Shown here in pieces: positions 13,606 to 59,404 of a stretch of 64,000 bases of DNA. The notes under the pieces are model-generated. The model had not been told where the DNA came from and searched no databases. It saw only the letters and a list, made by a program, of their open reading frames with translations. The position numbers and the translations under genes were made by a program. Position 1 is the first letter of the stretch; each line of letters opens with the position of its first letter. Source of the stretch: Diplonema papillatum (taxonomy: Eukaryota > Euglenozoa > Diplonemea > Diplonemida > Diplonemidae); NCBI GenBank assembly GCA_030068145.1, contig JAPJBO010000505.1:1-64000 (forward strand). The letters are read 5' to 3'.

Positions 13606-13616
13606 CGGTACTTTAT
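13606..13616 (+). other. 11-nt match to the 3' end of the diplonemid spliced leader, upstream of LINE C ORF1
   Basis: GTACTTTATTG, the last 11 bases of the Diplonema SL exon as I remember it, lies 15 bp before the ATG of LINE C ORF1. A second CTTTATTG follows within 11 bases (13620-13627). It may be a 5'-truncated SL at the insertion border, as for LINE D, but the match is short and could be chance. Confidence 0.35.
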
Positions 13617-13631
13617 TGATCCTTTATTGGT

Positions 13632-16600
13632 ATGGGAGTTTGGTTGGGAGGGAAAATGGGAAAACCGCTATCACACTCGGTCAGTGTACCGCCCGAAGTG
13701 AAGAAAAGGTGGCCGATCGCAGTGCTGACGTGCATTTGCCTCGGCCTCCTGCTGCTCGTCGAAGCCGAGTTCTCCGTCACTGAGCCGTTTGTGACGTCCA
13801 ACTGCGAAGTGTCGTGCTGGATCGGAACGTCCCTGAAGCAGAGTCCGTGTGCCTTGAGCGAGGGGATCGGCTGCCACACGTCGACGGACCTTATGAACTG
13901 GAAGCTCCTCAACGAGACCATGCACGACACGTCAATTGTCAGCAGCGTTGGTACGCCGCCGTGGTGGATCGAACGCTCGGACGACCAGCATGGAAACGAC
14001 GGCGGCGACTACGACGCCAGCCGGTGCGACGCGCCTGTCGGAACCTTCGCCGCCACGATCTCCGACGTCCCGGTTGCAACGTGCTTGGTCGTCGTGCGAG
14101 TGGTAGCGGGCCCCACCGTCGTGCCGACGGCAGATGCGCCGTCGACCGGAAGGCATGCCGCATCTGCATCTCCCTCGCCCCCTAGAGCATACGGCGGCTG
14201 GTTCGAACGCGACCGCTACGGCTCGCACACTGCTGTCGGGTGCTGCGAGGACCGCCCCTGGACGCGACCTTCATCTGTCACTGCCGCCGACACCGTTTGG
14301 GATCCCCTGATCCTCCCTGACCTTACCCACGCCATCGACGCGCCCTGCCTCCCGCGCCTACCGCAGCCCCCTCGTTCCATACTACGGAGTCTGCCAGCGA
14401 GACAACGAAGGTTGATGAGGGCGGCTGTCAGGCGCCGGAGCACGCTCCGAGCTCAACGTGCCACGCTCGAAGGCACCACTGACAACGTCCTTGTCCCCCA
14501 CGCTCGTGCATCACCGTTGGTCCTCGGCGGCGGTTGTACGCAAAACACGTCTGTTGCGGTCAACCCCGTGCGACCCCCGCCCTCGACTACAACGCTCGCA
14601 ACAACGTCCGCCCCGCCTGCCCCCGACACTCCTGCACTGCTGTCGTTCTGGGTCTGTGACCCCTCCGGCAAGCACCGACACTGCACGGTGGACAGTGAAA
14701 CTGTCGTCGGGGACTTCTTCGCGCAGTCGACTTGGTTTGACCCCGACGTGTGCTGGATTTCGCAGGGAACCAGGCAACTAGTCCTCTCGGACTCCTTTGC
14801 CGAGAACGCCGTCAACCGCGACGACACACTGACCGTGATGGTCAGGCTCCTCGGGGGAGGTGGCCGAGGTAGTTGGCGCGGCGGCAAGGGAAACAGGGGC
14901 GGTAGGGGCGCTGGGTCCTCGGGTACCAGCGTGCCAAGTGCCCCCGCTGGGGATGCGAGCTCCGGGACTAAGGGGCACAAGGGCGGAAAATCGCGCAGGG
15001 GGAATGGACCACCCGATGGCCTCGTGTGGAGTGATGGCGCAAGGGACTGCGATAAAGCTGACCTGTATCGCGACTGGGAGTTCCCTGAGATGCGCTTTCG
15101 AGCCGTCTTCCCCCTGCACGTGTTCGACGGCGACGTCACCCATGCGTCATGGGAAGAAGTGTCGGGCTCCCCGTTCCAGTGGGGGCAGTACTACCTGCAC
15201 AGCGTCCTGACCCGCGGTGCAGTTAACTCGTGCTGGGATGCTGCAGCCAAACAAGAGTTCTCCCGGGGCGAAGTTTACCAGACCTTGGAGATACACTTTT
15301 CGGCCAACGCAGCAGATGAAGTCGACATCTTGCGCGCAAGCGGGTACCAGGGTGCGTACTTTGAACCGCTGAACTCGCAAGATTACCGTGTCCTACTGGT
15401 CCCGGATAGGGCGGACATGGGGGAAGTCAGCAGCATCGCAGCCAAGATAGACCATCTCCAACTGGGTCTTTCTTACTGCAGAGGGGAATTGGGTGTTCGA
15501 GTCAGGGCATCCTCGTACGCCGAAGCCCGTCAGCTGTTACCGGATTTACCCGCGGAGATCGCCTATTTCGCGGTGGCTGGCATCCCCTGCGGTTCGAACG
15601 CAAACACGCTGCAACGGAACTTGACGCGCTTGGGGTGGAACGTCACGCCTTTGTTCAAGACGGCCAAATCGGGACGATACGCCGAGTGGGCTGTCAAGTC
15701 CGAGACGCTCCCGGGAAGGTTTGACTGCGATCTCCTCAACGGCATGCGCATCACCATCAAAAGGGTGGATCGGTACCCGATCCAACCCTCCAGACATATC
15801 GCGTCCGTCCGCCTCTCGTCCTCATACAGAGACGAATCGAACACGCTGCGTTGTGACGTACATGAAGGTTCAACACCGGTTCCGTACAGCGTATTCCTCG
15901 AGCGTTACGGCAAAGCTGCCAGTACCCTGTGGGAGCTTGCTGGTAAGAGCAGTACCACGGATGGTGCGGACGGATCTTCCTTTGGCAACGACGGCACCCC
16001 TCTAGCCGGCGGGAGCGAGGTCGGGCTGACGTCCTATGCAAAAGCGACTCTGCGGCCTTGCAGCTCGCCCCCGCCGGCCCGTGCAAATCCCACCTCATCG
16101 TCCTCACCGTCGTCCTCGCCAGTTAATCCGCCTAGGGCTGTCGCCGACATCGACGAACTCGAGCTGCAATCCCTGGTTCGCAGCCTTGTTAAAGAAGCAA
16201 CCTCGTCCACTGCCTCCGCACCTGTTCCGCGGGTCGCACCCCTGCCCGAACAGCCCCCCACGCAAGACGCAGCCGCGTTCAAAGAGTTTGTCGGCAGCAT
16301 AGTGCGGGAGAGTGTTGCCGACATGGAGAAAAAGCGTGCTCCCACCCTTGGTGCATGTGAGGTAGCAACCCTGGTCGAAAACTCTGTCGGAGCATGTGTC
16401 GCGCAGAAAGTGTCAGAGGCCGTCGCTGGTCCGCTCCTCGAAGTCACCGCTCAACTGAAGCTGATGGGGGAACGGATGACGACGCTTGCGGCGAGGGTGG
16501 ATGAGGTCCAGTCGTCCTCCGCTGGTAAGGGGGCTAACAAGGGATCGAAAATGACTTCTCCATCCCCAACCCCTGAGCGCGACATGCCCTTAGTGGTACA

Positions 16601-16928
16601 CAATGGGCCTAGCCCGGTTCAGGGCGCCGGCAGCTTGGTCAGTTCAGTATTGGCCCAGCCTCTGGTCAACCGGCCCCTCAGGATAGACGCGATGAAGGTC
16701 GGCATGCCGGTCCAAGAGGGCAAAAACGTGAAGTTGGTGGCAGCCATTCACAAGAAGCAGAAGGCTAACCGCCCTCGATCGCGGAGTCTTACCGCGTCCA
16801 CGCCGTCGCAATCCAGTGACGCCCCGCTGAGCGGCTCCAGCCAACAGCTCCTTTCGAAGGTTTGCGGCACTCCGGACGATCCTTCTTCGTTTCGCTCCGT
16901 CTGCCACATCGAGAAGGAAAAGATGTAG
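13632..16928 (+). CDS. LINE C ORF1: membrane anchor, astacin remnant, ubiquitin-like domain, gag-like core
   Basis: The protein has 1098 residues. Residues 27-46 form one hydrophobic segment (signal peptide or anchor). At about residue 130 the sequence DASRCDAPVGTF runs straight into AATISDVPVATC. In LINE B these two words are separated by the whole astacin catalytic part, so C is an internal deletion form without the zinc site. Residues 339-409 align well with ubiquitin, from FWVCDPSGK to VMVRLLGG, and a Gly/Arg-rich run follows directly (GGRGSWRGGKGNRGGRGAG). Residues about 475-720 match the core of LINE B ORF1, with the shared words WEFPEMRFRA, GLSYCRGELGVRVRA, LGWNVTPLF and AVKSETLPG. The C-terminus is low complexity and ends with TAG. 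ORF2 overlaps the last 98 bases in another frame. Confidence 0.8.
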   Translation: MGVWLGGKMGKPLSHSVSVPPEVKKRWPIAVLTCICLGLLLLVEAEFSVTEPFVTSNCEVSCWIGTSLKQSPCALSEGIGCHTSTDLMNWKLLNETMHDTSIVSSVGTPPWWIERSDDQHGNDGGDYDASRCDAPVGTFAATISDVPVATCLVVVRVVAGPTVVPTADAPSTGRHAASASPSPPRAYGGWFERDRYGSHTAVGCCEDRPWTRPSSVTAADTVWDPLILPDLTHAIDAPCLPRLPQPPRSILRSLPARQRRLMRAAVRRRSTLRAQRATLEGTTDNVLVPHARASPLVLGGGCTQNTSVAVNPVRPPPSTTTLATTSAPPAPDTPALLSFWVCDPSGKHRHCTVDSETVVGDFFAQSTWFDPDVCWISQGTRQLVLSDSFAENAVNRDDTLTVMVRLLGGGGRGSWRGGKGNRGGRGAGSSGTSVPSAPAGDASSGTKGHKGGKSRRGNGPPDGLVWSDGARDCDKADLYRDWEFPEMRFRAVFPLHVFDGDVTHASWEEVSGSPFQWGQYYLHSVLTRGAVNSCWDAAAKQEFSRGEVYQTLEIHFSANAADEVDILRASGYQGAYFEPLNSQDYRVLLVPDRADMGEVSSIAAKIDHLQLGLSYCRGELGVRVRASSYAEARQLLPDLPAEIAYFAVAGIPCGSNANTLQRNLTRLGWNVTPLFKTAKSGRYAEWAVKSETLPGRFDCDLLNGMRITIKRVDRYPIQPSRHIASVRLSSSYRDESNTLRCDVHEGSTPVPYSVFLERYGKAASTLWELAGKSSTTDGADGSSFGNDGTPLAGGSEVGLTSYAKATLRPCSSPPPARANPTSSSSPSSSPVNPPRAVADIDELELQSLVRSLVKEATSSTASAPVPRVAPLPEQPPTQDAAAFKEFVGSIVRESVADMEKKRAPTLGACEVATLVENSVGACVAQKVSEAVAGPLLEVTAQLKLMGERMTTLAARVDEVQSSSAGKGANKGSKMTSPSPTPERDMPLVVHNGPSPVQGAGSLVSSVLAQPLVNRPLRIDAMKVGMPVQEGKNVKLVAAIHKKQKANRPRSRSLTASTPSQSSDAPLSGSSQQLLSKVCGTPDDPSSFRSVCHIEKEKM

Positions 16929-19900
16929 TCGCAGACGCCCCAAGCGACGGAGCCGCAGGAGCGCAAAGCGCGGCAGAGAGCGGGCACCGTGTGTGGCGCG
17001 CGACGGGGGCGCGCCGCACTGGACTGATGCCCTAACCATCGCCTCCACCAACTGCCGCTCCTACAACGCCCGTGAGAACATTCCTACGAGTCTGGAGGAG
17101 ATCAGCAGAGGAGTCCAGGAGTTGCGGCCCGATATTGTTCTCCTCCAAGAGTCCTGGCTCTCCGACGAGTCTCTGCCCCCGCACCTGGACGGTTACGTTT
17201 TGTTCCGCCGGGACCGCGGAAGCCGTGGAGGGGGCCTTCTCACGTTCGTAAGGGCTGATCTCGCAGCGTCCTTAATCCCGGGCGCCTCCTTCGGTGACGA
17301 CTGCTCCACCGAGTGTCTTGGCGTCTTGGTCAAACGCGTTGGACTACCTCCGCTAAGGCTGCTGAATGTGTACCGCCCGCCAGGATCGCCCGCCTTACTG
17401 CCCGAAAACCTTGAATCGCTCGAGCTCGACGACACGACTATCATTGCCGGGGACTTGAACTTCCACCATCCGCAGTGGTCGCGTGGGGCACCTAACTCTG
17501 GAGGCTCTACGCTGTTCGACTGGCTGCAGGAATACCCCGCGACCGTGCACAACGACCCGTCGAAGCCCACAAGGGAGCCCACATCCGCCAGGCCATCATC
17601 CACCGATGTTGTAATCACCGCTCGCCCTCCTGAGCAGCTGATTCTCGACTGGACGACGCTGCCGCCCTGGGGTAAGTCCGATCACAAGGTCATGGTGTTC
17701 CGAGTTGCCAGGGGACATCGTCAGAAAGTGCTGAAAAGGCCCCCTCACTACGTGTGGGCTAAAGCCGACTGGAAGGCGTTCCTGGAGGATGTCGAACAAT
17801 GCTGCCCTAAGGGTCACATCCCCTCGATCCAAGCACGATCAGACGGGATTTCCGCCGCGATCCGTTCTGCCATCCGCGAACGTGTGCCCAGGGCGTCCGG
17901 AAAGGGCCCGCACAGACCATGGTGGTCACCCGAGCTCACACAACTGGAGCGGCTGAAGAGATCGGCGTTAGAAGCATCAGAAGGGGACCCTTTTGACGCC
18001 GACAAACTCGAGGAGTACGGTCGCGCTAAGGAGGCGTTTTCGGTTTCTGCTCATGCAGCCAAAGGACGGTACTGGGACAAGGTGGTGGCTGGAATCAACT
18101 CCGGCACCGACCTCAGCTTCCTGTACCGGATCATCCGTTCGATTGATGGCCGATTCCAGAGGAACCTGCTTCCCCCACTGTCTGACGGTCGCAGCCAGTA
18201 CACTTCCGGCAAAGGGAAAGCGGATTTGTTGGGCAGATGTCTCGCTAACACGTGCAAAGCTGTGGTGAGCGGTGCAGCTACCCCTTTCGAACCAACCTAC
18301 GGCCCCGAACTCGAACCGGACGACGGAATCCGCGGCGCCACTGGAGAGATCACCCCAGACGAACTGGACCGGGCAATCGATGATCTGAAAAAGAAGGAGA
18401 GCCTCGATCCGCAGGGGCTGTGTTCAATGGCTCTGAAGAACCTCGGACCTGAGGCCCGCAACTCCATGCTGCAGCTCTTCAACGAATCTTGGAGGAAGGG
18501 TGAGATCCCACGCCAATGGAGGGACGCTCACATGGTGCCCATCCACAAGCCTGGTAAAGATCGTTCGTCACCGCTGAGCTACCGACCGATTGCGCTAACC
18601 AGCGTGTCGGCAAAGCTCATGGAAATCATCGTAAAAAACAGGCTCGTCTTCATCACCGAGAGCCCTGATTTCCCGACGGTGATGCCGTACTCGGTCTTCC
18701 AAGGCGGCTTCCGAGAGGATAGAGGAACTGAGGAGCAAGCTTTCTCGATTGTCGCCGCCCTGGACGAGGCGCGCCGATTGAACCAATTTGCGTGCTTCCT
18801 CTCGTTTGACCTCATGAGTGCATTCGACACCGTTGATCACGACCGCCTGCTCCGAATCCTCGAGAAGAGGGGAGTCCCACAACGTTTCGTGCTCTGGCTA
18901 CGTGCTTTCCTCGAGGACCGCAGGGCGCGCTTCAAGGTGGACGGGGTACTTGGCCAGTCCTCGAAGCTGCAGAGAGGTGTCCCCCAGGGAACGGTCCTGG
19001 GGCCTGTTCTATTCCTCCTCTGCATCGACGACTTAGGGAGAGACATCCTCGAGGTCAAAGACAACGCTGCTAACTTCAGCCCTGAAGCTCAACGTGCCAA
19101 GATCACTCCCTCACTGTATGCTGACGACACCGGCTTCGCGATCTCTGCGGACGAACTGGACGGCCTGGCGAAGTGGGCACAGGATGTGATCACCCTGGTT
19201 GAGGAATGGTCGACTCGCGCGAAGATGCAAATCTCACATGAGAAAACAAAAGGAGTCTTCTTCAACTGGAAGAGGCGCGACTCCTCTGCTGCTCCTCACC
19301 TCGTGTTCGATTCCACCACCGCTGAACTCTGTCTCGACCCCCAAGACACAAGCTGGGGATTCAAGAACTGCAGCTTCGTTTCGAATGGCGACTTGAAGGC
19401 ACATCACGGCAAACACGTCGCCGCCCGCAACGGAATCGCGGTCAGGTCGCAAAACGATCTCCGTCCAAGATGTGCAACTTCCAAGGTCAAGGTGGTTACC
19501 TCCCTGCGGTGGGTCACACAGCACCGCTTCCTAGGCCTGATCATCGACAACAACCTCTCCTTCCGCCCGCACGTGGAAAACGTCTTGGAAAGGCTGTCGG
19601 AGAGAATGATCATCCTGCGGAGAACGTGCATGAAGTCCTGGGGCCTCAGCGTCTGCACGAACCGCAAGGTGTACCTGACGTACGTCCTCCCGGTTGTAAC
19701 GCACTGCCTTGCTGCTTACGGTCCTTTCCTACTCCCCAGCCATGGTTGTCCCAATCCTCTCCTTCTGGCTTTACTCGAGAGCCGACACAGAGTAGCCCTG
19801 TCGTACGTACTGGGCTGCAAGAAAGGGGTGTCGGCCTTCATTGCGCAGAGAGAGGCCCGCGTGCTCTCGATCCATGGGTACATCGAGTACAGGCTTGGCA

Positions 19901-21492
19901 CCTTGTGCGAAAAGATGTCGATGCGGCGTTCTGTCTGGTCTGAGGTGCTGGACACGCGCAGTCTGCTGCTCTTGAAGTTCGCGGAACTGAACACGCGCGC
20001 ACGCCTCAACAAAAGGAGCCGTGAGATCCCGATGTACCGCCCGTTTAAACCCTGGGAAAGTGTCCCCAAGGTGACGGTACACAGCACGCTCGACAAAAAG
20101 CGGTCGAAAGACCCGGCCGTCAACAGAAGAACGGTGGCAACCAGGCTGGATTCACTCCCCAAGCCCCACCGGATAGCATGGGCGGACGGCTCCGCCCGGA
20201 CGGGGGCTCGGCTGCCACTGTACACGGGACCAGCCGAGCTGAAGCCGTGGGCCATCAACACTACCGACCTCACCGTGTGGGGAGGCGGCGGGGTCTATGT
20301 GCAGAAACCATTCGGCGACCGTGGCCCGGACTGGAGGCGACCGGTGGACGGTAACGCCATCGCTTGGACTTGCCCGGTCGGGGCCCACTCGAACAGTTTC
20401 CGCACGGAGCAGGTCGCTTTCCTCAATGCGGTTGAAATCCTGGATGAAGAGACCTCTCGGGAAGCAACCGCGCAGATGGCATTCGATGAACCTAAGGTGG
20501 CGTGGGTGCTCAGCGACTCGCAGTCGCTTCTGAAAGACCTCGCCCCCGGCCCCCACCGACAGAAGCGGTTCATGAACCAGCTGATCTGGCTGAAACTTTG
20601 CAACATCGCCAGGAGGGGGTATATTCTGATCCTGCAGTTCGTGTTCGGTCACTGCAAGCTCCCCGGGAATGACCGCGCTGACAAGCTGGCGAAGAAGGCT
20701 GCTCTGCTAGCCCGCCAACTGACGCAGTCCCCCGACCTGACCCTCGCTGCCGGAGTTTCCCGCCCGCCGCCGCTCTCGTACGTCGAAGCGACAAACCGCT
20801 TCAAGCTGTTTTTGCTCAGGGAGGACGGCGAGAGGGGAGCTAAAGGTGCGATAGTGAGGGCTCGCCGCCTTGCTGTAGGCATGCCGTTCGTGAAGATCGT
20901 TGGGGGACGCAAGATCCCAGTGCCGGACAAACTGACCGTGAGGGCAGAGAAGGAAATCCGCCAGTTCCGAACGATGCACCACGGTCTCTTTATCACCCGG
21001 TACTTTACGGGGTATAGGAGCCTCCCGGCCTCAGAGCAGGAGCAGTACTTCCGACCCTGCCCCCTCTGTGGACACCGGGTCCATAACTTCCTTCCACACA
21101 TTTTCATCTCGTGTCGGCACGCGGAGTCGGGAGCAGCACGGGCAGCTATGTGGGACGCAGTTGGATTCGACAGGTCAGCCGCGATCGAAGTTCGCCTATG
21201 GGAGCTGCTCTTCAAGCACCCGGAGGCAGCCCTGCGCTACTTGCAGCGGATCGATGTCATCCCGACATATGCGATACTGCGCAAGGACGCGGAGGCGGCT
21301 CGACCCCCATCTCTGGAGAGTCAGGAGCGAGAAGAAGAGCCCTCCCCGTACCTCTCCACTCGCACACCGGTCTCGTCCCCTGCGATGTCGTCGTCGTCCT
21401 CCTCGACGGAACCTGGCAACACGGGGGATGACGAACTAACTCCTCTCCCCAGCCAGTGGCGGCCGCGGGAGAGCGACTCTGAGTCCGGCTGA
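16831..21492 (+). CDS. LINE C ORF2: APE endonuclease, reverse transcriptase, RNase H, zinc motif
   Basis: The frame opens after a TGA at 16828-16830, inside ORF1, and runs to 21492. No ATG occurs until well inside the endonuclease domain (near residue 230 counted from 16993). The first 50 codons are Arg-rich. Endonuclease: LLQESWL, IIAGDLNFHHPQW, KSDHKVM. RT: SYRPIALTSV, GGFREDRG, SFDLMSAFDTVDH, GVPQGTVLGPVLF and LYADD at 19117-19128. RNase H: AWADGSA, SFRTEQVAFLNA, WVLSDSQSLL, FGHCKLPGNDRADK. Zinc motif CPLCG...H....C near 21060. The frame is +1 relative to ORF1, so a frameshift, reinitiation at a non-AUG codon or a separate spliced mRNA is needed. No internal stop; catalytic residues are intact. 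Confidence 0.9.
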   Translation, partial: AAPANSSFRRFAALRTILLRFAPSATSRRKRCSRRRPKRRSRRSAKRGRERAPCVARDGGAPHWTDALTIASTNCRSYNARENIPTSLEEISRGVQELRPDIVLLQESWLSDESLPPHLDGYVLFRRDRGSRGGGLLTFVRADLAASLIPGASFGDDCSTECLGVLVKRVGLPPLRLLNVYRPPGSPALLPENLESLELDDTTIIAGDLNFHHPQWSRGAPNSGGSTLFDWLQEYPATVHNDPSKPTREPTSARPSSTDVVITARPPEQLILDWTTLPPWGKSDHKVMVFRVARGHRQKVLKRPPHYVWAKADWKAFLEDVEQCCPKGHIPSIQARSDGISAAIRSAIRERVPRASGKGPHRPWWSPELTQLERLKRSALEASEGDPFDADKLEEYGRAKEAFSVSAHAAKGRYWDKVVAGINSGTDLSFLYRIIRSIDGRFQRNLLPPLSDGRSQYTSGKGKADLLGRCLANTCKAVVSGAATPFEPTYGPELEPDDGIRGATGEITPDELDRAIDDLKKKESLDPQGLCSMALKNLGPEARNSMLQLFNESWRKGEIPRQWRDAHMVPIHKPGKDRSSPLSYRPIALTSVSAKLMEIIVKNRLVFITESPDFPTVMPYSVFQGGFREDRGTEEQAFSIVAALDEARRLNQFACFLSFDLMSAFDTVDHDRLLRILEKRGVPQRFVLWLRAFLEDRRARFKVDGVLGQSSKLQRGVPQGTVLGPVLFLLCIDDLGRDILEVKDNAANFSPEAQRAKITPSLYADDTGFAISADELDGLAKWAQDVITLVEEWSTRAKMQISHEKTKGVFFNWKRRDSSAAPHLVFDSTTAELCLDPQDTSWGFKNCSFVSNGDLKAHHGKHVAARNGIAVRSQNDLRPRCATSKVKVVTSLRWVTQHRFLGLIIDNNLSFRPHVENVLERLSERMIILRRTCMKSWGLSVCTNRKVYLTYVLPVVTHCLAAYGPFLLPSHGCPNPLLLALLESRHRVALSYVLGCKKGVSAFIAQREARVLSIHGYIEYRLGTLCEKMSMRRSVWSEVLDTRSLLLLKFAELNTRARLNKRSREIPMYRPFKPWESVPKVTVHSTLDKKRSKDPAVNRRTVATRLDSLPKPHRIAWADGSARTGARLPLYTGPAELKPWAINTTDLTVWGGGGVYVQKPFGDRGPDWRRPVDGNAIAWTCPVGAHSNSFRTEQVAFLNAVEILDEETSREATAQMAFDEPKVAWVLSDSQSLLKDLAPGPHRQKRFMNQLIWLKLCNIARRGYILILQFVFGHCKLPGNDRADKLAKKAALLARQLTQSPDLTLAAGVSRPPPLSYVEATNRFKLFLLREDGERGAKGAIVRARRLAVGMPFVKIVGGRKIPVPDKLTVRAEKEIRQFRTMHHGLFITRYFTGYRSLPASEQEQYFRPCPLCGHRVHNFLPHIFISCRHAESGAARAAMWDAVGFDRSAAIEVRLWELLFKHPEAALRYLQRIDVIPTYAILRKDAEAARPPSLESQEREEEPSPYLSTRTPVSSPAMSSSSSSTEPGNTGDDELTPLPSQWRPRESDSESG

Positions 21493-23205: not shown

Positions 23206-23278
23206 GGTCGTGTAGCTCAGTCGGTAGAGCATTGGTCTAATAAGCCAACGGTCCCAGGTTCGAGCCCTGTCACGACCA
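23206..23278 (+). tRNA. tRNA-Ile, anticodon AAT
   Basis: The 73-nt gene folds as a full cloverleaf. Acceptor GGTCGTG pairs with CACGACC. The D arm is GCTC-AGTCGGTA-GAGC. The anticodon stem TTGGT/GCCAA encloses the loop CTAATAA, so the anticodon is AAT (Ile). The T loop is TTCGAGC. The outermost T-stem pair is a C-T mismatch. Six T follow two bases after the discriminator, a normal RNA polymerase III terminator. No intron. Confidence 0.93.
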
Positions 23279-23665: not shown

Positions 23666-23752
23666 GCCGGAATGATATCAACTGGTGTTGGTTGCAGGCT
23701 TCAAACCTGTAGGTGGGGTGACCCACAGCGGTTCAATTCCGCCTTTCCGGTG
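23666..23752 (+). tRNA. tRNA-Sec (selenocysteine), anticodon TCA
   Basis: The 87-nt gene has all the unusual features of eukaryotic tRNA-Sec. The acceptor is GCCGGAA paired with TTCCGGT, with discriminator G. The D stem is long, six pairs (ATCAAC/GTTGGT), around a four-base loop. The anticodon arm GCAGGCTTCAAACCTGT matches the vertebrate gene almost base for base and gives anticodon TCA. The variable arm is long (GTGGG-GTGA-CCCAC). The T stem has only four pairs around TTCAATT. TTTT follows at 23753. A working gene implies that the organism reads some UGA codons as selenocysteine. Confidence 0.95.
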
Positions 23753-29620: not shown

Positions 29621-30420
29621 CACAGAAGGCACGCGGTGGCTATCGGGAAACTGCGTCGCGCACTCAGACAGAATTGACAGCATGTACTTGGAACCGTCAG
29701 TAATCTGGACAACCGTTACGCTGGACGAATATCAGGAATCGACGAATATCTTCGGGCTGTTTCAAAATTCTTCTCGAAAATACAGGGTCAAAAGGGCCTT
29801 CCCCCCCCCCAAAAAAAAAGACTCCAGATACGCAAACTCTTTCGAACGCTGCACACGGGTATCCTTCACGGGTGCCCTTATATCCCGAACCGGGATATAT
29901 GGGCACCAAATTTGTTTTGAACCGGGATATAAGGGCACATATTTGTTAGGGGCGGGATATAAGGGAAATTTACCGAGAGAAAATGTTGATAACGAAACGG
30001 TTTGCCAACACAGAAAGTGCACGAACAAAAAAAAAAAAGAAGGGACGACGCCAAGGAAACAGGAAAATAAAAGACACGGAGGGCGCAGCACGACCCAAGC
30101 ATGCAGAGACATTAGAGACAAATGGGCCTAATTGACTTCCCCCCTTCAACCCCTCCTCGCCCCCATCCCCGCAACCCATTCTTTTCTTATTTATTGAGTT
30201 TACTACTTTTAACATCAAAAATATCACAAGACTGACGCTCTCGGGGGCACCACAACAATCTCAGCATGATGAGAGGAAAAGCAGTGTCAAAACAGCAAAG
30301 CAGAGGCACAAACCGCCCTAAAGATTAGCGACATCCCTCTATTTCCTTCCCTTCTATGTCACTCGTACTATCATAACGTAACTATGTGCCTCTCTAAGGC
30401 GACAGTACGTTTGAAACCCT
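29621..30420. other. Gene-free stretch before LINE D
   Basis: No gene. It contains a hairpin with GGGATATAAGGGCA repeats (29871-29907 and following) and an A-run at about 30029-30040. Confidence 0.5.
29871..29960. repeat. Hairpin and direct repeats with GGGATATAAGGG
   Basis: GGTGCCCTTATATCCCG and CGGGATATATGGGCACC (29871-29907) form a stem with one mismatch. The word CGGGATATAAGGG occurs twice more by 29965. Confidence 0.7.
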
Positions 30421-30539
30421 TTTTTTGTGTTTCCGACGATCCCGTGGGACGTACAGATTGGTGTCTTTCGACCTTTGTTTGTTTGTGAGGTTCAGCTTGG
30501 TGCGTGTGGTCGGTGGGCGGGGGGGTTGGTTAGGAAGCT

Positions 30540-33500
30540 CTACTGTATCGGGCTAGACTTTAATTCATGCTTGAGCCAGGATGCCCACTCCGCAGCCTTT
30601 CCGCTGGGCTCTTGGTAGCTGATCCGCTCGCATACACTTTTCATTACAGTGGCGTTGCGCGCTGCGAAGTCGTCCATGATTTGCCAGTACGTCACGTTGC
30701 ATTGTCCATAAATTCTCGCCAGGTCTGCTTCGGGTCCATAACTCCGCACGTGAAGCTCGTCGTTGGCCGTGAGCACGTGCTTAGCACTTCCTCGTTCAAC
30801 GCATCCTACGACGGCGCACGCCTCGCTCGTTCTAAACGGCATGATCGTCCTTCGGACCAGGGCCTGGAGCAAGTCCGTCGCGCCGTGTAGCTTCCGCAGT
30901 GCCCGGAGGGTTTGCGTGCTGAGGCACCGTGGCGGCACTTCATTCGTCAGTCGGTCGCGGACCGCCATGTCACGGCTGCAGTTGCGGCTCCTCCGCAGGA
31001 AACGGCCACTCTCTTCCAGCTGCACCAGGTCATTCGCCTCGTCGTTGTCGTCGGGCTGCTGCCGTCGGCGTCGACACAGCCTTGTGACTTTGGCTACGCT
31101 GTAGCACCACTCGATGTCGAATGAGCGGATACTTTGGTGCGCATTGGTCGCTGCTTCGTCGGCCGCGTTGATATCCGCGTTGTCGCGGTGGCCCCTTGCC
31201 CACTGGACCACCGGGATGTTGCGCAGAACCGCGGCGACGGGGTCTCCTTTCCGGGGGTTCCGCGTGCGGGCTATCGCACTCTGACTGTCACTGCGCAGAG
31301 TGACTGTGGCCTGGGGCTGCACTGCGTCTAGGGCTGTGGCGAGCACCATCAACGCGCACAGTTCTGCGTCTGTGCTGGAGCTGATCCTACCTTGGATTTT
31401 TGCCCCGTAGGCCGTCCCGTTGACGTAGACGCCTACGGACCCCCTGCCTTCTCGTTCGTGGTAGCTGCCGTCGGTAGCCACCTTGATCTCCCCGCCTTCG
31501 GCTTCGGCTTTCCGGAGGGCCTTTTCCGTCCACGTAACAATGTACGGTTTTCGGCCTCTTCGTGGTGGCCCTAGCTCGAAACCGGTCGCCGGTATGCGTC
31601 CTTCCGTGGCGTGGGGGTGAGCAGCCATGTACGCCCTTGCCCTCTGCTGTTCCGCGAAATCCTTCACAGGTGTCATCCCGTAACCGAAGGTGCATGCTGG
31701 GTAGTTTGCGATGCCCTTACTGCCGCGGTGCTTCGGGATCAGCTTGTTGTATGCTGCGAGGAGTTTTGGGTGGGAGGGGTCAAAGCACTTGGCGATCGCT
31801 TGTACCGCTAGGGTCGGTAGTGCATGACTTCTGTATCGGTCGCACTTGCCTCTCGTGGAGCAGAAGTACGACTGTGCGACAAGTGCGCAGACTCGGCTGA
31901 AGCGTTCCATCTTGGCTCGGTTGCGAGTGCAGGTTGCATGGTCCTTGTCCCCATGGAGACACCCTCCGAGGAGCCTTGAGGAGAGCCGCGTCGTGACTTC
32001 GCCGTGTCCGGGTACCGACAACTTGCAAACTCTCGTTGCGACCACTACGAGCTTCCTTCGAGCCATCTTCATCCCCTTGCGCGCCATCCAGTCGTTGAGC
32101 GTCTTGATCTGGGCGGGGACAGAGTCGATAGTCGCATGAGACGTCAGATCATCGATGTAGGCCTTGCATTGTTCGATTGCAGGTGGATCGGCTGTGTAAT
32201 AGAGGTATAGAATTACACTCAGCGGGGACCCCTGCAACAGTCCCCTCCGCGGCGCCATTGGCTGGGTGTAGCCTTTGTTTGTTGTCAGTGTGAACCATTG
32301 GGACCCTAGTATGCTCTTGACCGAGTTCGCCCATTCATCGCCGAAGTCGTTTCGGATGTCTTCGAGGAGCTTGTCGTGTGGCACTGTGTCATAGGCCGCC
32401 TCGATGTCGGCGATTACGACGGCTGGGTCCTCGATGTCGCTGTCTAGCCACTCTTGCGCCCGTTGGAGGATCTCAAGAGTCGCATGCTGATGCTGGCATC
32501 CGTACTGGAAGTCGCTGGTTCTTATTCGTTCGATGCATAGGTCTCTGATTTTAAGGTAGAGGCAGACATGAAGACACTTGAGCATCAGTGGCATGATGGC
32601 GATGGGTCGAAAGGCGTTTGGGGACTTCTGCTTCGCGCCAGGTTTTAGGAGCAGGAAGATCCAGGACAAAGCGTGCTCGTGGGGAATTCCGGTTTCCAGC
32701 CACTCGTTAAAAGTGTCGGCTACTGTTGCAATTTCTTTTGGACGGAGTGTGGAGAGGAATGTTGCCGACAAGTCGGTTGTTCTGGCCTTCTTCTTCACGA
32801 GCGGGATTGCCAACGCCACGTCCTGCGGGGTAATGGTGACTGCTTTGCGGCGCTTCGGGTTTTCTTCTTCGCTCTCTTCTGCTGGCTGTGTCGGTCGTGA
32901 TGTTACGGCGTCGTATCGGAGTTGGAAGTGCGCGACGACGGCGGCGACGTTGGGGATGTTGGGAGGTTCATATGGGCGTCGGAGCTGAGTGGCGTGGTTG
33001 CTGTTTTCGCCTCTCGTGGCGTAGGCGATCCGTCTCCGGATGTCGTTGATTTGGCGATTCAGCTCCTTCTTTTCGTCCTCGTTCGTGGCAGTGCGTCGAT
33101 TCAGTAACCTCGTATTGAGGGCCCGTTGGAGTCGTGCGATTTTGGTTGTGCGGTAGCGTGGTGGTCTGACTACCAGGGGGCCAGTCATTGTCGCCATGAG
33201 CCCGTCAAAGTCGTCTGCCACAGGTCGGTCGTTTTTGGGGTATCTCATCGGTGGAATTACCCTCACGATCGTGTGGTCGTACTCTACGGTGATTGCTGCA
33301 TGGTCGCTCCCGCCTGAGAAGCGCGCGGATACGAAAACGCAACTTGTTCCTCGGGGTACGAAAACCCTGTCTAGCGATGTGCTGGCGTTGCTGCGCTGGT
33401 AGGTCGTCCGTCCTCGTACGAGTTCGTCGCCCGCCTTGTCCCTTACGAATCCTTCGACGGCGGGTGTCGTATTTCCGTTGAAGTCTCCGGTGACCACGTA

Positions 33501-34358
33501 TTCGCCTGGGGACCTCCTCATTGTGTTCACGATCCAGCTGCCGAGGGCTTCCGCCTCTGCTTTTAGGGTGTTGTTTACGACGTATACAGAAACGATGCGC
33601 AGGACTCGCTCTCCTATCTTCAGATCGGCGTAACAGCAGGTGCGGTGCGATCCCGTGCGTAGGATGTGCGTCGATGAGCTGTTCGGGACAAGGATGCTGC
33701 TTCGGGCGATTCGTTTTGACCCCAACTCTTCCACTGCGACTACTAGCACTTGCCAGCCTTTAAGTCGCGCCATGTCTTCGAAAACGACGGGGTCCCTTCC
33801 GATTTCGCTCACAGCTAGGATGTTCGCACAAGGGAGTAGGTCGAAGAAGGCAGACAGACTCTTCTTGCAGCATGAGTTGCAGCTTACGATACGTACTTTG
33901 CTTCCAGCGGATGGGGTGACAGGGCGGTGGTTTGCGGGGTTGTATGCATCGCCTTCTTTGGAGATGGTGGGTGGGAACATGGTGAGCTGAACCGGTGCTT
34001 GATTGTTTGGCGGTGAAGAGGCTGGTTGTTGTGGTGATGATGATCGGAGTCCTGCATCCGGCTGATTACTTGTAGCTGGCGGGGCAGCTGGTAGAATTAG
34101 TACTTGGGGAGGGAGTATGATGGGGTTGTGGGTGGGGATAGGCTGCTTTGGTGAACCACGTGCTCTGGTGGGGATGGGGAGGAGGGGGACACCTGATGAT
34201 GCGGGTGGGACGGGCAAGGGGAGGAGGGGGACACCTGATGATGCGGGTGGGACGGACAATGATGATGATGCGGGGGCTGAGGCTGGGCCGCGCGTGCTAC
34301 TTGTTGCCTGGGTGTGATGGTGCTGATCGTGAAAGCTGCAGCTGGGCGTTTGCGACAC
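30540..34358 (-). CDS. LINE D ORF2: endonuclease, reverse transcriptase (YIDD), RNase H
   Basis: The open frame has up to 1272 codons; the codon at 34358 is GTG, and the first ATG in frame is near 33980, just before the endonuclease. I give the full open frame. After a Pro/Ser-rich N-terminus (two copies of PPASSGVPLLP) comes an APE-like endonuclease (VRIVSCNSC, VVTGDFNG, SDHAAI). The RT has AFRPIAIMPLMLK, DIEAAYDTVPHDKLL, GLLQGSPLSVILY and the active site YIDD instead of YADD. RNase H has VATDGSYHE, STDAELCALM, LRSDSQSA and WARGHRDNADINAADEAA. No internal stops. ORF1 ends 36 bp upstream in the same frame, with TAG and then TAA between. Confidence 0.85.
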   Translation of the reverse strand: MSQTPSCSFHDQHHHTQATSSTRGPASAPASSSLSVPPASSGVPLLPLPVPPASSGVPLLPIPTRARGSPKQPIPTHNPIILPPQVLILPAAPPATSNQPDAGLRSSSPQQPASSPPNNQAPVQLTMFPPTISKEGDAYNPANHRPVTPSAGSKVRIVSCNSCCKKSLSAFFDLLPCANILAVSEIGRDPVVFEDMARLKGWQVLVVAVEELGSKRIARSSILVPNSSSTHILRTGSHRTCCYADLKIGERVLRIVSVYVVNNTLKAEAEALGSWIVNTMRRSPGEYVVTGDFNGNTTPAVEGFVRDKAGDELVRGRTTYQRSNASTSLDRVFVPRGTSCVFVSARFSGGSDHAAITVEYDHTIVRVIPPMRYPKNDRPVADDFDGLMATMTGPLVVRPPRYRTTKIARLQRALNTRLLNRRTATNEDEKKELNRQINDIRRRIAYATRGENSNHATQLRRPYEPPNIPNVAAVVAHFQLRYDAVTSRPTQPAEESEEENPKRRKAVTITPQDVALAIPLVKKKARTTDLSATFLSTLRPKEIATVADTFNEWLETGIPHEHALSWIFLLLKPGAKQKSPNAFRPIAIMPLMLKCLHVCLYLKIRDLCIERIRTSDFQYGCQHQHATLEILQRAQEWLDSDIEDPAVVIADIEAAYDTVPHDKLLEDIRNDFGDEWANSVKSILGSQWFTLTTNKGYTQPMAPRRGLLQGSPLSVILYLYYTADPPAIEQCKAYIDDLTSHATIDSVPAQIKTLNDWMARKGMKMARRKLVVVATRVCKLSVPGHGEVTTRLSSRLLGGCLHGDKDHATCTRNRAKMERFSRVCALVAQSYFCSTRGKCDRYRSHALPTLAVQAIAKCFDPSHPKLLAAYNKLIPKHRGSKGIANYPACTFGYGMTPVKDFAEQQRARAYMAAHPHATEGRIPATGFELGPPRRGRKPYIVTWTEKALRKAEAEGGEIKVATDGSYHEREGRGSVGVYVNGTAYGAKIQGRISSSTDAELCALMVLATALDAVQPQATVTLRSDSQSAIARTRNPRKGDPVAAVLRNIPVVQWARGHRDNADINAADEAATNAHQSIRSFDIEWCYSVAKVTRLCRRRRQQPDDNDEANDLVQLEESGRFLRRSRNCSRDMAVRDRLTNEVPPRCLSTQTLRALRKLHGATDLLQALVRRTIMPFRTSEACAVVGCVERGSAKHVLTANDELHVRSYGPEADLARIYGQCNVTYWQIMDDFAARNATVMKSVCERISYQEPSGKAAEWASWLKHELKSSPIQ

Positions 34359-34394
34359 AGAGCTCGACGTCGTCGCTGCTTTGTTAGGTTAAGG

Positions 34395-35501
34395 CTACAG
34401 TCTGGGTGGCGTCTTTGGCGGTGGGGTGAAACCCGTTTCGGATGAGGCTGCCCGCTTCGTCCCGCGCCTCTCCCTATCGCTTCCGGTGACAACGGATTCC
34501 TCCGTGTTCTGGGTGCCGCCCCCGGCTGCGCTCTCGTTCGTTTCGTTCGTACCTTCTTCCTCTTTTCCAGCTGCGTTCTGTGTTGCTCCGTCTCCGTCTG
34601 CGTCATCGCCGATGCCACTCTCACTGCCACTAGTGTCGTCGGCAAGGTGTTCCGGCTCCTCCACCTCTGACACCGGTTGCATTAGGGTTTCTATGTGCCC
34701 AAAGCGGAGCACGTTTCCAAACGGGGTGGTGAAGGGGGTCCGGGCGAGCTCAGCTTCGTCGATGGGGCTGAGGCCCTCCACCACGTAAGCAACAAACCCC
34801 GGCCGTAGGCCGAAAACCGGGTAAACGGTTAGGCCGCTTTCAGGGCGGATTGCTGCAGTGGCTAAGGCGCCTGAGACCTCTAAGGAGTGCCACGTCCGGT
34901 CGCATCCAGTGAGGCCGAACTTCTTCTTTGAACGTTCTATGAAGACCTTGCGCTGGTCCTCGCGTCGTGCTTTTGTCACGATGTACCTTTCACCGTGCTT
35001 CAGGGCCATCCCGGATGGGTCCAGCAGTTCGGCCAGGTCCTCCCATTTGTTCTGGGACTCGGGGCGCACCTTTATCAAGTACTCGTTCGCCCCCGACCTT
35101 ATGACCCTGGCTTCGATGGCCGTGTCTTCCAAGGCTCGCAAGACCTCGTGGAAAGGTCTGACGGTCGTATCTTTCCTGGCCTCTGCTCGCTGGAACGTTT
35201 TCAGCTCCGTCCACCCCGGTTCTTCCAGCGCCCACTCGGCATAATAGGCGCTGTAGCCGGACTCCCTCACTGTCCGGAAAACCTTCTGCACATCGCAGTT
35301 CTCCCTCAATCGTACAAGCTTCACGCCGTTGGACCGGAAGAACCCGACCGCATTGCGCACGTCTTCGATAGCAGCTGTTCCTCCCATCTTCTCGAAAAGG
35401 ACGGCGAAACCTTCGATGGGCCCGCAGATGGACAGGAGCCGCTTGAGGTCGTCCTTGATTGATGACAGTTCGATGATCCGCTTTTCAGACACGGTAGACA
35501 T
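34395..35501 (-). CDS. LINE D ORF1, function unknown
   Basis: I take the ATG at 35501 (MSTVSEKRIIELSS), giving 368 residues; the frame upstream of it is only the A-rich leader. The first 270 residues are a mixed alpha/beta type of sequence without a motif I recognise; the last 100 are acidic and Ser/Thr-rich and end with a basic patch and PPPKTPPRL. There is no obvious zinc knuckle, astacin or ubiquitin-like part, unlike LINEs B and C. By position it should be the nucleic-acid-binding ORF1 product. It lies directly behind the SL sequence, so its AUG is the first in the presumed trans-spliced mRNA. Confidence 0.7.
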   Translation of the reverse strand: MSTVSEKRIIELSSIKDDLKRLLSICGPIEGFAVLFEKMGGTAAIEDVRNAVGFFRSNGVKLVRLRENCDVQKVFRTVRESGYSAYYAEWALEEPGWTELKTFQRAEARKDTTVRPFHEVLRALEDTAIEARVIRSGANEYLIKVRPESQNKWEDLAELLDPSGMALKHGERYIVTKARREDQRKVFIERSKKKFGLTGCDRTWHSLEVSGALATAAIRPESGLTVYPVFGLRPGFVAYVVEGLSPIDEAELARTPFTTPFGNVLRFGHIETLMQPVSEVEEPEHLADDTSGSESGIGDDADGDGATQNAAGKEEEGTNETNESAAGGGTQNTEESVVTGSDRERRGTKRAASSETGFTPPPKTPPRL

Positions 35502-35525
35502 TGGTTTTTTTTTTTTTTTTTTTGC

Positions 35526-35556
35526 CAATAAAGTACAGAAACTGTAGCTTTTAAAT
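35526..35556 (-). other. Spliced-leader remnant at the 5' end of LINE D
   Basis: On the minus strand, 31 bases reading from ATTTAAAAGCTACAGT to CTGTACTTTATTG match the 3' 31 of about 37-39 bases of the Diplonema SL exon as I remember it. The next bases are GC and a long A-run, not the GT donor of an SL RNA gene. It is thus a spliced mRNA copy, 24 bases before the ORF1 ATG. Confidence 0.7.
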
Positions 35557-36081
35557 AGCTTTTTTTTTTTTTTTGTCTCCGCTATTGCTCTACCCTTCAC
35601 ACCCTCCTCTACGCCTCATCATCCCATCATCATTTAAACATTCCTTCTTTTTCCTCTTATCTACTCCTTTTTCCCGTTTTCACATTCCTTCTCTTACATC
35701 CATCACTTCCTCCCCACTCCGCCGCAGCGCTCGTGCGAAAAACGAGAATGCTGGGGCAGAACCGCACGAAAACAGCAGAGAAGCCCCAAGCAAACCACAG
35801 CAAGAGGCGACACACGGGGAGGAAACCACCCCCAAGAAAAACGAAAGAGCGTGCAACTGCTCCAGCATTCCCTCCCTGAGCTTCCCCTCTCGGGCCACGG
35901 CACGAGCCAGAAAGAAGCTCCCCAACCGGACTTCTAACCGGAGCCGACAACAAGGCACCCCGGAAACCGTTCCTCCTCCCGACCTAACGCTAAGCTAAAG
36001 GATGGCCAGGTACATTCATGTTCCCGATGTTTCCCTCTCAAAAGGCTAAGGCCCAGCCTCCGTTTGTTGTCCTAGTGAGCT
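35557..36081. other. Gene-free stretch, pyrimidine-rich on plus strand
   Basis: A run of about 16 T (35561-35576) directly borders the SL remnant of LINE D. Beyond it, low-complexity C/T-rich sequence; no gene seen. Confidence 0.5.
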
Positions 36082-38702
36082 CTATACTTCAAAAAAAAAA
36101 AAAACCAGGCTTTCATGAGCTGCTTCCTCGCTGGGCTCTCGGGGGCTTTCTGGTTGGGGCACAGCAGCTTCCAGTGCCTGTGCAGCACGCTCCGCACGGC
36201 GTTCAGCCTTGGCTTTTTTCCCTGTGTCGCGATACAGGTCTTCATGCAGCAGCCTATGATTCAGGGCAACACTCATGGAAGCGTTTAAATTTTCAGTGGA
36301 GAGTGTGGATCTCTTTTTGTTTAAAAGGACCGACAACTTCTTGAAGTGTCGTTCTACAGAAGCTTCGCTAGCTGTCGCTTTGCCCAAAGTGCAAGCGAAG
36401 AGAGTTAGCAGTTCACTCTCTTCTGCTGTAGCAAGGGCATGATTTCTCCAAAAAAACTTGTACCCGTGTTTGATAACTTCCCCGCTCGGGCCTCGGGCTC
36501 GGTTTCTGAACTCGTTGTACACGACTTTCAGTTGAACAAGAGTTTGTTCAAGGGTGCTTTGATCGCGAAGTCTCCGGCTAACGAATGGGCGCAAGAACCG
36601 GCACAGCACATTCCACTGTCGGGCTTTCTGCTCATTCTGGACCAGCATCTGGTCGACGTCGGGGTGCAGAGACTCCAGAACTTGCATGGCTGGAAACGAC
36701 AAGTTCTTTTCTATGCGCCAGGTCCATTTCTTAATGGCGTACTCGACGACACTGAGCTCGTTCTTGTTCTGACTATGCCTCACTCGTGCCACTGCAAGCC
36801 CGTCCGTGATAGTTGCCGGCGGAACGCATCACTGACTCCAGGCAGGTATCGGATGCTTTTGTCGCGAAGCGTGGCGATGCTGAGCGCGGTGTCATACACG
36901 CTGCTCCATCGCACCGACGTCGGGTATCGCACCACGCGGGGATGGCTTTCCCCCGCATCCAACTGCATCTGTCGAATACGGGCTTTTTCTTCAGCTGTGT
37001 TGAACTTTTTTGCAAGATCAATCACTTCATCTTTCACTGATGACATGAAGGGGTGCTTCATAATGTCACCCATGCAAAGTTGCATGCTGTGACAGGCACA
37101 TCGGAAAGCAAATATGCCGTGATTCTTTGCATATTTGAGTGTCTCGAACATCAGTTTCTCGACGCTTTCCTCCCCTTCATCAGTGAAGTCAATTCCCAAT
37201 CCGCGAATTTCAAACTCGAAGGAATCGGGTGACAGGGAAACCCCGAATGCTTCTGCATCACTGATGAGGTCCTTCATTGCTCTCAACATAGCAGATGCGT
37301 TGTCCGCCACAATAGCGAACACATTGAGACTTCCGCGATCGCGAAGCAGTGCGATCGTATGATCCAGCTCGGAACAAATAGTCTGAGCGTTCGCTGATGC
37401 TATTTCAACGTTTTTAAGAAAGAAAGTTGAGGCACCGTTGCTCACAGCAAATCCCAAGAAAGTTCTTCCACGAACAGTGGCACCATCGATGAGCAGGAAG
37501 ACGTCTGCACCCCGATTCACCGCAAAGAACATTTCTTCTGTCTCAGCAGCAAAATCTCTGGTTTCCCGGACAAGCTCTTTTGTCCAGAAGCGCTGCTTGG
37601 CAAGGCCAGTCGGGTTCAGTATCGATCGGAACAGTGGGGTATCCATGATCGAGTTCGGCAGGCCATACTCAGAGACGAGAAGTGCAAGTCGACGAGTGAA
37701 CGACATTTCGTTCCAAGGAGCCACAGCAGCGGAAGAGACTGCACCAGACGCACGCGCTCTTCGAGGAGACTTAGGGCCGTGTTGTCCCTCCCAATGCCGC
37801 TGAATGCTTGTCTTCCCGATTTCCTTCTGGCAGATATTGCATTTTACGACCTTGTTCCCGTTGGTCTTTGTGCAAACGGGCCCGCATAAATAGCCGCGTC
37901 CCACTCCGCTGGCTATTTTGGAGGAGTACTCAGTCACATACTCTACAATCGCAGGGAGTGGCTTAGACACAACGGTGGCAACAGAGGCCGAACCCGCCGC
38001 GGCCGCAGTACTTTCTCGAGTGTTGTCATTACTCGCGGCGTTTTCGCTCAACTGTGCACCTTCAGCCAGTTCAGGTACTTCGGGACGATGCGAAGCTTGA
38101 TCCGTTGACTGGGTCTGATCCTCACTCTTTCCGGCTGCTGCTTCAAGCTCTGTCAAGTGACGTTGCAGGTCCCTCATGCGAGCAACGAGGGCGCGTTTCT
38201 GATTGCGAACTTTTGCGAGCAGATTGGTACGGACTTCGTTAACGAACCCAGCGAAGCTGTTGTTTGTCTTGTGGCAGGTTTCACAGATGTCCATGCCGCA
38301 GTGACCCTTGATTTTCGGACACGAAAAACGAGCACCATCGACTCCGCCACATGCATCACACTCCCACAACCTCCAGTCCCGTCCCCTTTGCGTCTTCAAT
38401 TTCTCAAGGGCGAGTACCACTAACAGCTCTCCGCATAGGCACCTTCGCTCCTCAGGCTCAGCCTCCTGTGACTCTGACTCTGTGTCTGACGCTGTACTAC
38501 TCGACTCTTCACTTGGAAGGCGGCGTTTTTTCCTTCTCGCCTGGTCAGGGTCTGCAGTTTCCTGCTGACGACGTCTCACCCTGGCTGCCTTCTGATGCTG
38601 CGTCCCTTCTCGTGCTGCACCTCCCGTAGGCATGGCACTTGTAGTGTGCACCAGCAATAATAATAACAGGAACACCCACAACACGAAGTGTTTGGCGATC
38701 AT
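36082..38702 (-). pseudogene. hAT-family transposase, frameshifted
   Basis: Two open frames together give a hAT transposase. The first (36780-38702, 640 codons) begins at an ATG followed by a hydrophobic stretch like a signal peptide; the ATG at 38633 after it is the more likely start. It holds a Cys-rich ZZ/PHD-like finger (CDACGG...CETCH), a BED-like finger (CNICQKEIG...H....H), and a DUF659-type catalytic part with LLIDGATVRG, IVADNASAM and CACHSMQL. The frame breaks near 36785. The second frame (36082-36792, 236 codons) holds the C-terminal dimerisation region (ASVERHFKKLS...KKRSTLSTENLNASM). One frameshift, or an unseen intron, separates them. The gene lies just inside the right family-2 inverted repeat. 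Confidence 0.8.
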
Positions 38703-59074: not shown

Positions 59075-59404
59075 TTCATTGACACGTCTTGAAACACGGA
59101 CCAAGGAGTCTAACACGTGTGCGAGGCTTAGGGTGTCAAACCCACAAACCGCACTGAAAGGGAGATGCGTGCCAATCCTTGAGGACGCAGCACAGCGATC
59201 CTGATTTACTGGAAGGAATTTGAGGTTAAGTACACTTGTTGGGACCCGAAAGATGGTGAGCTATGCCTGGATAGGACGAAGCCGGGGGAAACCCTGGTAG
59301 AGGTCCGTTGCGGTGTTGACGTGCAAATTGCTCATCGAAGCTTGGTATAGGGGCGAAAGACCCATCGAACCATCTAGTAGCTGGTTCACTCTGAAGTTTC
59401 CCTC
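59075..59404 (+). rRNA. Fragment of large-subunit rRNA, following region
   Basis: CGTCTTGAAACACGGACCAA, GGAGTCTAACACGTG, GGGACCCGAAAGATGGTGAG, TATAGGGGCGAAAGACC and ATCGAACCATCTAGTAGCTG are universal LSU words in the correct order and spacing (yeast 25S about 670-980). Identity breaks off after GAAGTTTCCCTC at 59404. The fragment continues, in LSU terms, the piece at 57640-58010, but on the other strand. Confidence 0.85.

Follow-up and report, generated by a model that had tools for sequence, protein, structure and literature searches.

Copies of the LINE D retrotransposon of Diplonema papillatum can carry a spliced leader (SL) at the 5′ end in DNA, and the SL-headed copies in this genome almost certainly derive, to judge by their sequences, from trans-spliced RNA. 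The copy described first lies on the minus strand of a stretch of 64,000 nt (contig JAPJBO010000505.1, positions 1 to 64,000), referred to here as the window.

The SL at the 5′ end of LINE D

The minus-strand 31-mer at 35526..35556 (read from 35556 to 35526), ATTTAAAAGCTACAGTTTCTGTACTTTATTG, is an exact match to nt 9-39 of AACCAACGATTTAAAAGCTACAGTTTCTGTACTTTATTG, given as a euglenozoan SL in a table row of PMC3795323 (the row as excerpted does not name its species), and to the SL RNA gene of this genome at locus L034 (below). An earlier note on this DNA had taken these bases for diplonemid SL exon, and proposed alignment to the published SL as a check; they prove to be the last 31 nt of a 39-nt SL. 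The sequence is found once in the window, even with up to 3 mismatches tolerated, and in 0 of 100 shuffles; with the reversed control also absent genome-wide, a chance origin is out.

The earlier note had placed the SL directly at the 5′ end of LINE D. This holds for nt 9-39, but nt 1-8 are missing from the window copy: the 31-mer is preceded by a target A15 run and then by GCT where they would be (35557..35574, minus strand). GCT after A15 puts AAAAGCT ahead of ATTTAAAAGCT, perhaps because of slippage between the A-run and the SL's internal AAAAGCT. On the other side there is no GT donor, and the A-rich leader and ORF1 ATG that the note described are there instead: the leader, GC-A19-CCA (24 nt, 35502..35525, minus strand), runs from the SL to the ATG and would be the captured flank of a parent copy; the leaders at loci L053 and L060 differ from it. 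The SL RNA intron, U2 and 5S are all absent from the window locus, which rules out an SL RNA gene there.

LINE D is a two-ORF LINE (non-LTR retrotransposon) with a reverse transcriptase (RT) domain. ORF1 (34395..35501, minus strand; 368 aa) has no Pfam match. The ORF2 frame (30540..34388, minus strand; 1282 codons, stop to stop) includes an RT domain over the cut-off (RVT_1, E 7.3e-17), a weak RNase H match, and endonuclease matches under the cut-off (Exo_endo_phos_2, E 0.0026; Exo_endo_phos, E 0.052). The 3′ UTR (30420..30539, minus strand) ends in CGGAAACAC-A7, and the 3′ sequence (CGGATCGTCGGAAACACAAAAAA) is also captured at locus L048 (below). No target site duplication of at least 9 nt was found at the window copy, where an A-run target would mask one. 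There is no Rfam match at 34900-36400 at E values up to 1, and so no HDV-like ribozyme at the 5′ region. The window also holds a tRNA gene (23206-23278), a selenocysteine tRNA gene (23666-23751) and an LSU rRNA fragment (59110-59384), all on the plus strand.

SL RNA genes and SL copies across the genome

Locus L034 is an SL RNA gene, with a 39-nt exon followed by GTACTTTAACACATCC (starting GTACTTT) and a T-rich stretch beginning after 75 nt; two U2 genes and one 5S gene share its 9.4 kb. It agrees with the Diplonema papillatum gene as described in an excerpt of PMC10161547 (39 + 75 nt, in repeat units with 5S and U2), which makes this species very probably the host, and the diplonemid host group proposed in the earlier note is thereby borne out. 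The full SL followed by GTA has 211 matches in the genome, compared with 110 gene copies at ≥90% identity in the same excerpt (PMC10161547); many are in arrays, e.g., on C1335, often about 1240 bp apart (among the 100 matches listed of the 211). A second SL RNA gene (L065) is found among the sampled sites, as is an SL RNA fragment (L022) with the complete SL exon and the first 44 nt of the intron, followed by unrelated sequence.

The 31-mer itself has 574 exact copies in the 271 Mb searched (2910 contigs), and its reversed control has none. While 211 copies are SL-RNA-like, 363 stand outside the SL RNA form. The sites read comprise 89 of the 100 matches listed (of 574 in all) and the window; at 87 of these 90 the SL is joined to sequence other than the SL RNA intron, the rest being L034, L065, and L022. 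A SLACS/CZAR/CRE-type LINE inserted in an SL RNA gene might be suspected wherever an SL adjoins a LINE, CRE-clade elements being known to target SL RNA genes (excerpt of PMC12278014), but the non-intron sequence at those 87 sites and the lack of intron, U2 and 5S at the window locus leave this reading with almost no probability.

Up to 9.4 kb of sequence was read at each of twenty loci, one of which, L031, was chosen for its relation to LINE D. Setting aside L034 as an SL RNA gene and L039 for its roughly 280 nt of downstream sequence, 18 were testable, and RVT_1 is found downstream in the SL direction at 15 of them (at L037 barely over the cut-off). For L033, L036, and L041, five of the eight ORFs listed were tested and gave no Pfam match. 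An HDV ribozyme was sought in 20 further loci without a match, and target site duplications at the 20 loci and the window were not convincing, barring a 25-nt match within a local repeat at L050. The tie between SL and LINE D drawn in the earlier note thus stands for LINE D but is not special to it: many LINE families are involved, at least one of them behaving differently (family 1, below). Assembly chimeras joining SL RNA genes to repeats, a caution voiced for Schistosoma SL-containing retrotransposons (excerpt of PMC5832876), are scarcely credible here against 363 non-SL-RNA copies with varied flanks, LINE domains downstream at 15 of 18 loci, private SL mutations in the copies, and AG at the junctions (below).

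At seven loci (L001, L013, L023, L027, L035, L064, and L084) the SL-headed elements lie directly behind a common sequence type, AGAACTCAATGCT(T/A)AAC, pointing to either a preferred target or insertion behind some other repeat.

Leaders and their unspliced counterparts

The start of LINE D ORF1 is found at six exact places, and allowing 3 mismatches adds none. Four of these copies (window, L053, L060, and L091) are headed by the SL, so that the proposal to ask whether all full-length LINE D copies begin with it receives a negative answer; the other two have an A-run, at L093 followed by CCCC and ACCAATG (A31; LINE D directly behind the A-run) and at L094 by 25 nt and CCAATG (A22). The window, L053, and L060 copies are 99.3-99.8% identical in ORF1 over 438-468 nt, but their leaders, starting GC-A19, CACTCTG-A15, and CAAGTCAAAAGTCTGAGTG-A23 respectively, are mutually unrelated. 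CAAGTCAAAAGTCTGAGTG was found at one other place, C575, with AG exactly at the junction, by a search pattern blind to sites with C in either of the two preceding bases. At C575 the leader sequence stands ahead of an uninterrupted A29, and LINE D is absent from the 221 bases read.

Locus L048 is a LINE D relative, with an ORF1 63.5% identical to that of the window copy and 88.6% to that of L031. Its order is SL, the end of a dispersed repeat, A15, a 5′-truncated LINE D 3′ end, A6, ORF1. The first 36 nt of the repeat end are found exactly at 86 places (among the 100 matches listed of 132 at up to 3 mismatches); AG precedes them at 84, which as members of one repeat family amount to one independent case, and the SL precedes them at the other two, L048 and L092 (C553).

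The first 20 nt of each leader were sought without the SL in all loci read, with up to 2 mismatches. Leaders with at least 7 A in these 20 nt (including those of the window, L031, L053, L037, L095, and L098) were left out, and 87 junctions kept. There are 18 distinct leaders with an unspliced counterpart, and AG stands directly before the counterpart in 13 of them (for one, in 9 of 10 matches), compared with 6.1% of dinucleotides in the background; some of the counterparts sit within longer leaders of other SL-headed copies, and are not all independent of the elements. Because the unspliced counterparts end in AG this often against a background of about 6%, the SL-leader boundary looks like a trans-splice junction.

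L006, L014, and L016 are exceptions without AG; a further non-AG case (L009/L067) is a register artefact against L018, and for L079 the non-AG counterpart, which lies in the window, is perhaps a truncated SL. At 13608-13629 (plus strand) the window has GTACTTTATTG-ATCCTTTATTG at the exact position of the L079 SL end, ahead of a second LINE, whose two ORF frames span 13620-16928 and 16831-21492; RT and endonuclease are in the second frame. The stretch at 13608-13629 may be a truncated SL and relic, although its alignment score of 22 compares with 24 for the best of 500 shuffles. Among the A-rich leaders left out of the count, AG precedes the counterpart for L037 and L095, and does not for L053, which is of low complexity. 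The L012 leader has unspliced counterparts at 43354 and 56605 of the window (both minus strand), with ACGTCCAG then GATTTGGGCTC, at 0 and 2 mismatches. In the L026 group, the bases after the SL, ACGACGATTTTTC, resemble ACGACGATTTTT, which is found after CAACAAG near the end of L040, again behind AG.

The leaders could also come from template switching, in which the RT jumps from the A-run of LINE D to that of an unrelated SL-bearing host RNA, the leader then being host mRNA. C575, as the source of the L060 leader, would suit this well with its A29 and no LINE D in 221 bases, as would the A-run that separates leader from ORF1 in the copies of LINE D and its relatives that were compared. Yet L048, with a LINE D 3′ end between two A-runs, is more simply a parent locus with two insertions, L093 shows the parent type without an SL, and the relic at L091 (below) requires an SL-headed parent, making template switching an unlikely source. 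Either way, under template switching or capture of a parent's flank, the RNA copied would have been trans-spliced.

Relics of older SLs

The L091 copy of LINE D reads SL, TTTCTGTACTTTATTG, TCTTCGCAAACAG, A12, CCAATG. The additional 16 nt come from the end of an older SL, and since this relic begins directly after the CTACAG of the older SL, L091 is read as re-spliced: in it an older DNA-encoded SL has acted as trans-splice acceptor at its CTACAG. There are 25 instances of the 16-nt relic junction, spread over 23 loci. Five relic loci were read: a single relic is present at L091 and at L098; L097 has one, preceded by an SL with one change; L096 has one, preceded by an SL cut off at an A-run; and L095 has three in a row, or four rounds if there was one splice per relic. 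Among these, LINE D was identified at L091 alone. Relics of older SLs are absent from the window copy, no relic loci are among the 89 sampled places, and tandem SLs of the kind known from dinoflagellates are likewise missing there (0 of 89 with an SL piece of score at least 13 within 600 nt of the SL).

AG at the leader sources, the differing leaders, and the SL relic all support the earlier note's central claim, that LINE D copies come from reverse-transcribed, trans-spliced RNA. It is likely that LINE D regains its SL through fresh splicing in successive rounds.

Family 1

Family 1, with leader GCTGCTCACGCGG and 20 copies among the sampled sites, presents a different picture. The SL end abuts one and the same base of the leader in all 73 matches to a pattern blind to C in the two preceding bases, and in 72 of 72 in a further search; neither search found an AG-headed copy. 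Such constancy, together with the lack of relics within 600 nt in the 89 sampled places, is what might be expected if the SL had been captured once, inherited as DNA, and transcribed from a start at or near it with no new trans-splicing. For LINE D, such a fixed SL (or 31 bases inherited as part of a longer 5′ UTR, as the earlier note would have had it if mistaken) does not fit the near-identical copies with unrelated leaders, AG at their sources, or the L091 relic. In family 1 itself five copies have SL changes shared with no other copy, in contrast to one leader variant common to two, and two of the sampled copies (L027 and L052) begin at an internal CATCCAG. A fixed SL seems very improbable as a general account. 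For the way in which the family 1 junction is kept, an inherited SL with its own start, an unassembled master copy, and collapse of a 16-nt repeat while copying are all candidates.

Family 1 ORF2 at L032, L047, and L049 has an AlkB-like 2OG-Fe(II) oxygenase domain N-terminal of the endonuclease and RT. One might speculate that this domain strips methyl groups from the template RNA.

The first nucleotide of the SL

Of 94 sites with an exact 31-mer, 45 have a contiguous SL match that stops at nt 2, 18 have one extending to nt 1, and 31 have a shorter one. Without L022, L034, and L065, A is found at nt 1 in 15 of 60, which is at chance level given 0.317 A in the flanks; the copies thus give no sign that SL nt 1 is copied. 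Euglenozoan SLs bear a heavily methylated cap, and failure of the RT at the cap-adjacent nucleotide would explain the missing base, which would then be a genomic trace of the cap.

A model for LINE D retrotransposition

LINE D inserts, in the model we favor, at A-runs, as a two-ORF LINE that seems to have neither its own promoter nor its own 5′ UTR. A copy would be transcribed within a longer RNA begun upstream, and the host SL trans-spliced to an AG ahead of ORF1. This AG could lie in the flank, in an element upstream, or in the CTACAG within a DNA-encoded SL from an earlier round. The resulting SL-mRNA would be both translated and used as template by the LINE D RT, which would copy it to about SL nt 2, so that the new copy starts with the SL and everything between the AG used and ORF1. 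The copies themselves display the 5′ SL in DNA, AG at the unspliced counterparts, leaders differing in near-identical copies, re-splicing relics, and no sign of SL nt 1; read-through transcription, translation of the SL-mRNA, priming at A-runs, and the lack of a promoter we infer. Points against it are C575 with its uninterrupted A-run and no LINE D in the 221 bases read, the absence of AG at L006, L014, and L016, the lack of a target site duplication at the window copy (which an A-run would hide), the identification of LINE D at just one of the five relic loci read, and the fixed junction of family 1. Taken as a whole, from RNA started upstream, through trans-splicing and reverse transcription to about SL nt 2, to a leader running from AG to ORF1, we hold the model to be highly probable.

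How LINEs, which have no LTRs, keep up their 5′ ends is a standing question, to which the answers have been internal promoters and 5′ ribozymes. Host trans-splicing appears to maintain the 5′ end here. If so, any copy keeping the ORF1 ATG could be restarted at whatever landing site has an AG upstream. Copies made from an RNA template are marked by the SL tag, successive rounds can be read from stacked relics, and one genome offers several hundred test cases. A broader reading, to which we give a little less than even weight, is that elements of the LINE D type have lost both promoter and 5′ UTR and have the 5′ end rebuilt each generation by the host, with the DNA SL serving as a portable acceptor (CTACAG), the 16-nt relics counting generations, and the 3′ end of an upstream element usable as acceptor. 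The copies indicate elements that jump as finished, leader-capped messages, with a front end that can be regained from the host.

Comparison with known systems

No earlier report of SL-headed diplonemid LINEs was found in the open-licence literature searched. Several known systems share parts of the arrangement; comparisons here are with the excerpted portions of the papers cited. SLACS/CZAR/CRE elements have the association of a euglenozoan LINE with the SL in common with LINE D, but insert into SL RNA genes, whereas LINE D carries the SL at dispersed sites (PMC12278014). L1Tc/ingi elements with Pr77 are also euglenozoan LINEs amid polycistronic transcription and SL trans-splicing, but their 5′ promoter includes an HDV-like ribozyme, while the 5′ region of the window element has no ribozyme match (PMC4748587, PMC4035085, PMC8190864). 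Reporter RNAs made in T. cruzi from constructs with a mutated Pr77 promoter were without SL (PMC4748587, PMC4035085).

In Schistosoma mansoni the SL has been found fused with (retro)transposons, and the authors suggest trans-spliced, retro-transcribed elements (PMC5832876). Six cases were described there, with assembly chimera left possible, compared with the several hundred SL copies, AG sources, and relics seen here.

Features of SL-tagged retrocopies are present here as a DNA-encoded 5′ SL at a trans-splice acceptor and, in other copies, as relics of older SLs. Dinoflagellate retrogenes have DinoSL relicts at the 5′ end, and stacked relicts are taken as a count of retroposition rounds (PMC6050394, PMC3942190). 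The two systems are alike in the DNA-encoded 5′ SL and in having relics, but the dinoflagellate reports cited concern host genes, while the diplonemid carriers are LINEs, and the diplonemid relics are 16-nt pieces from after an internal CTACAG, unlike the dinoflagellate kind.
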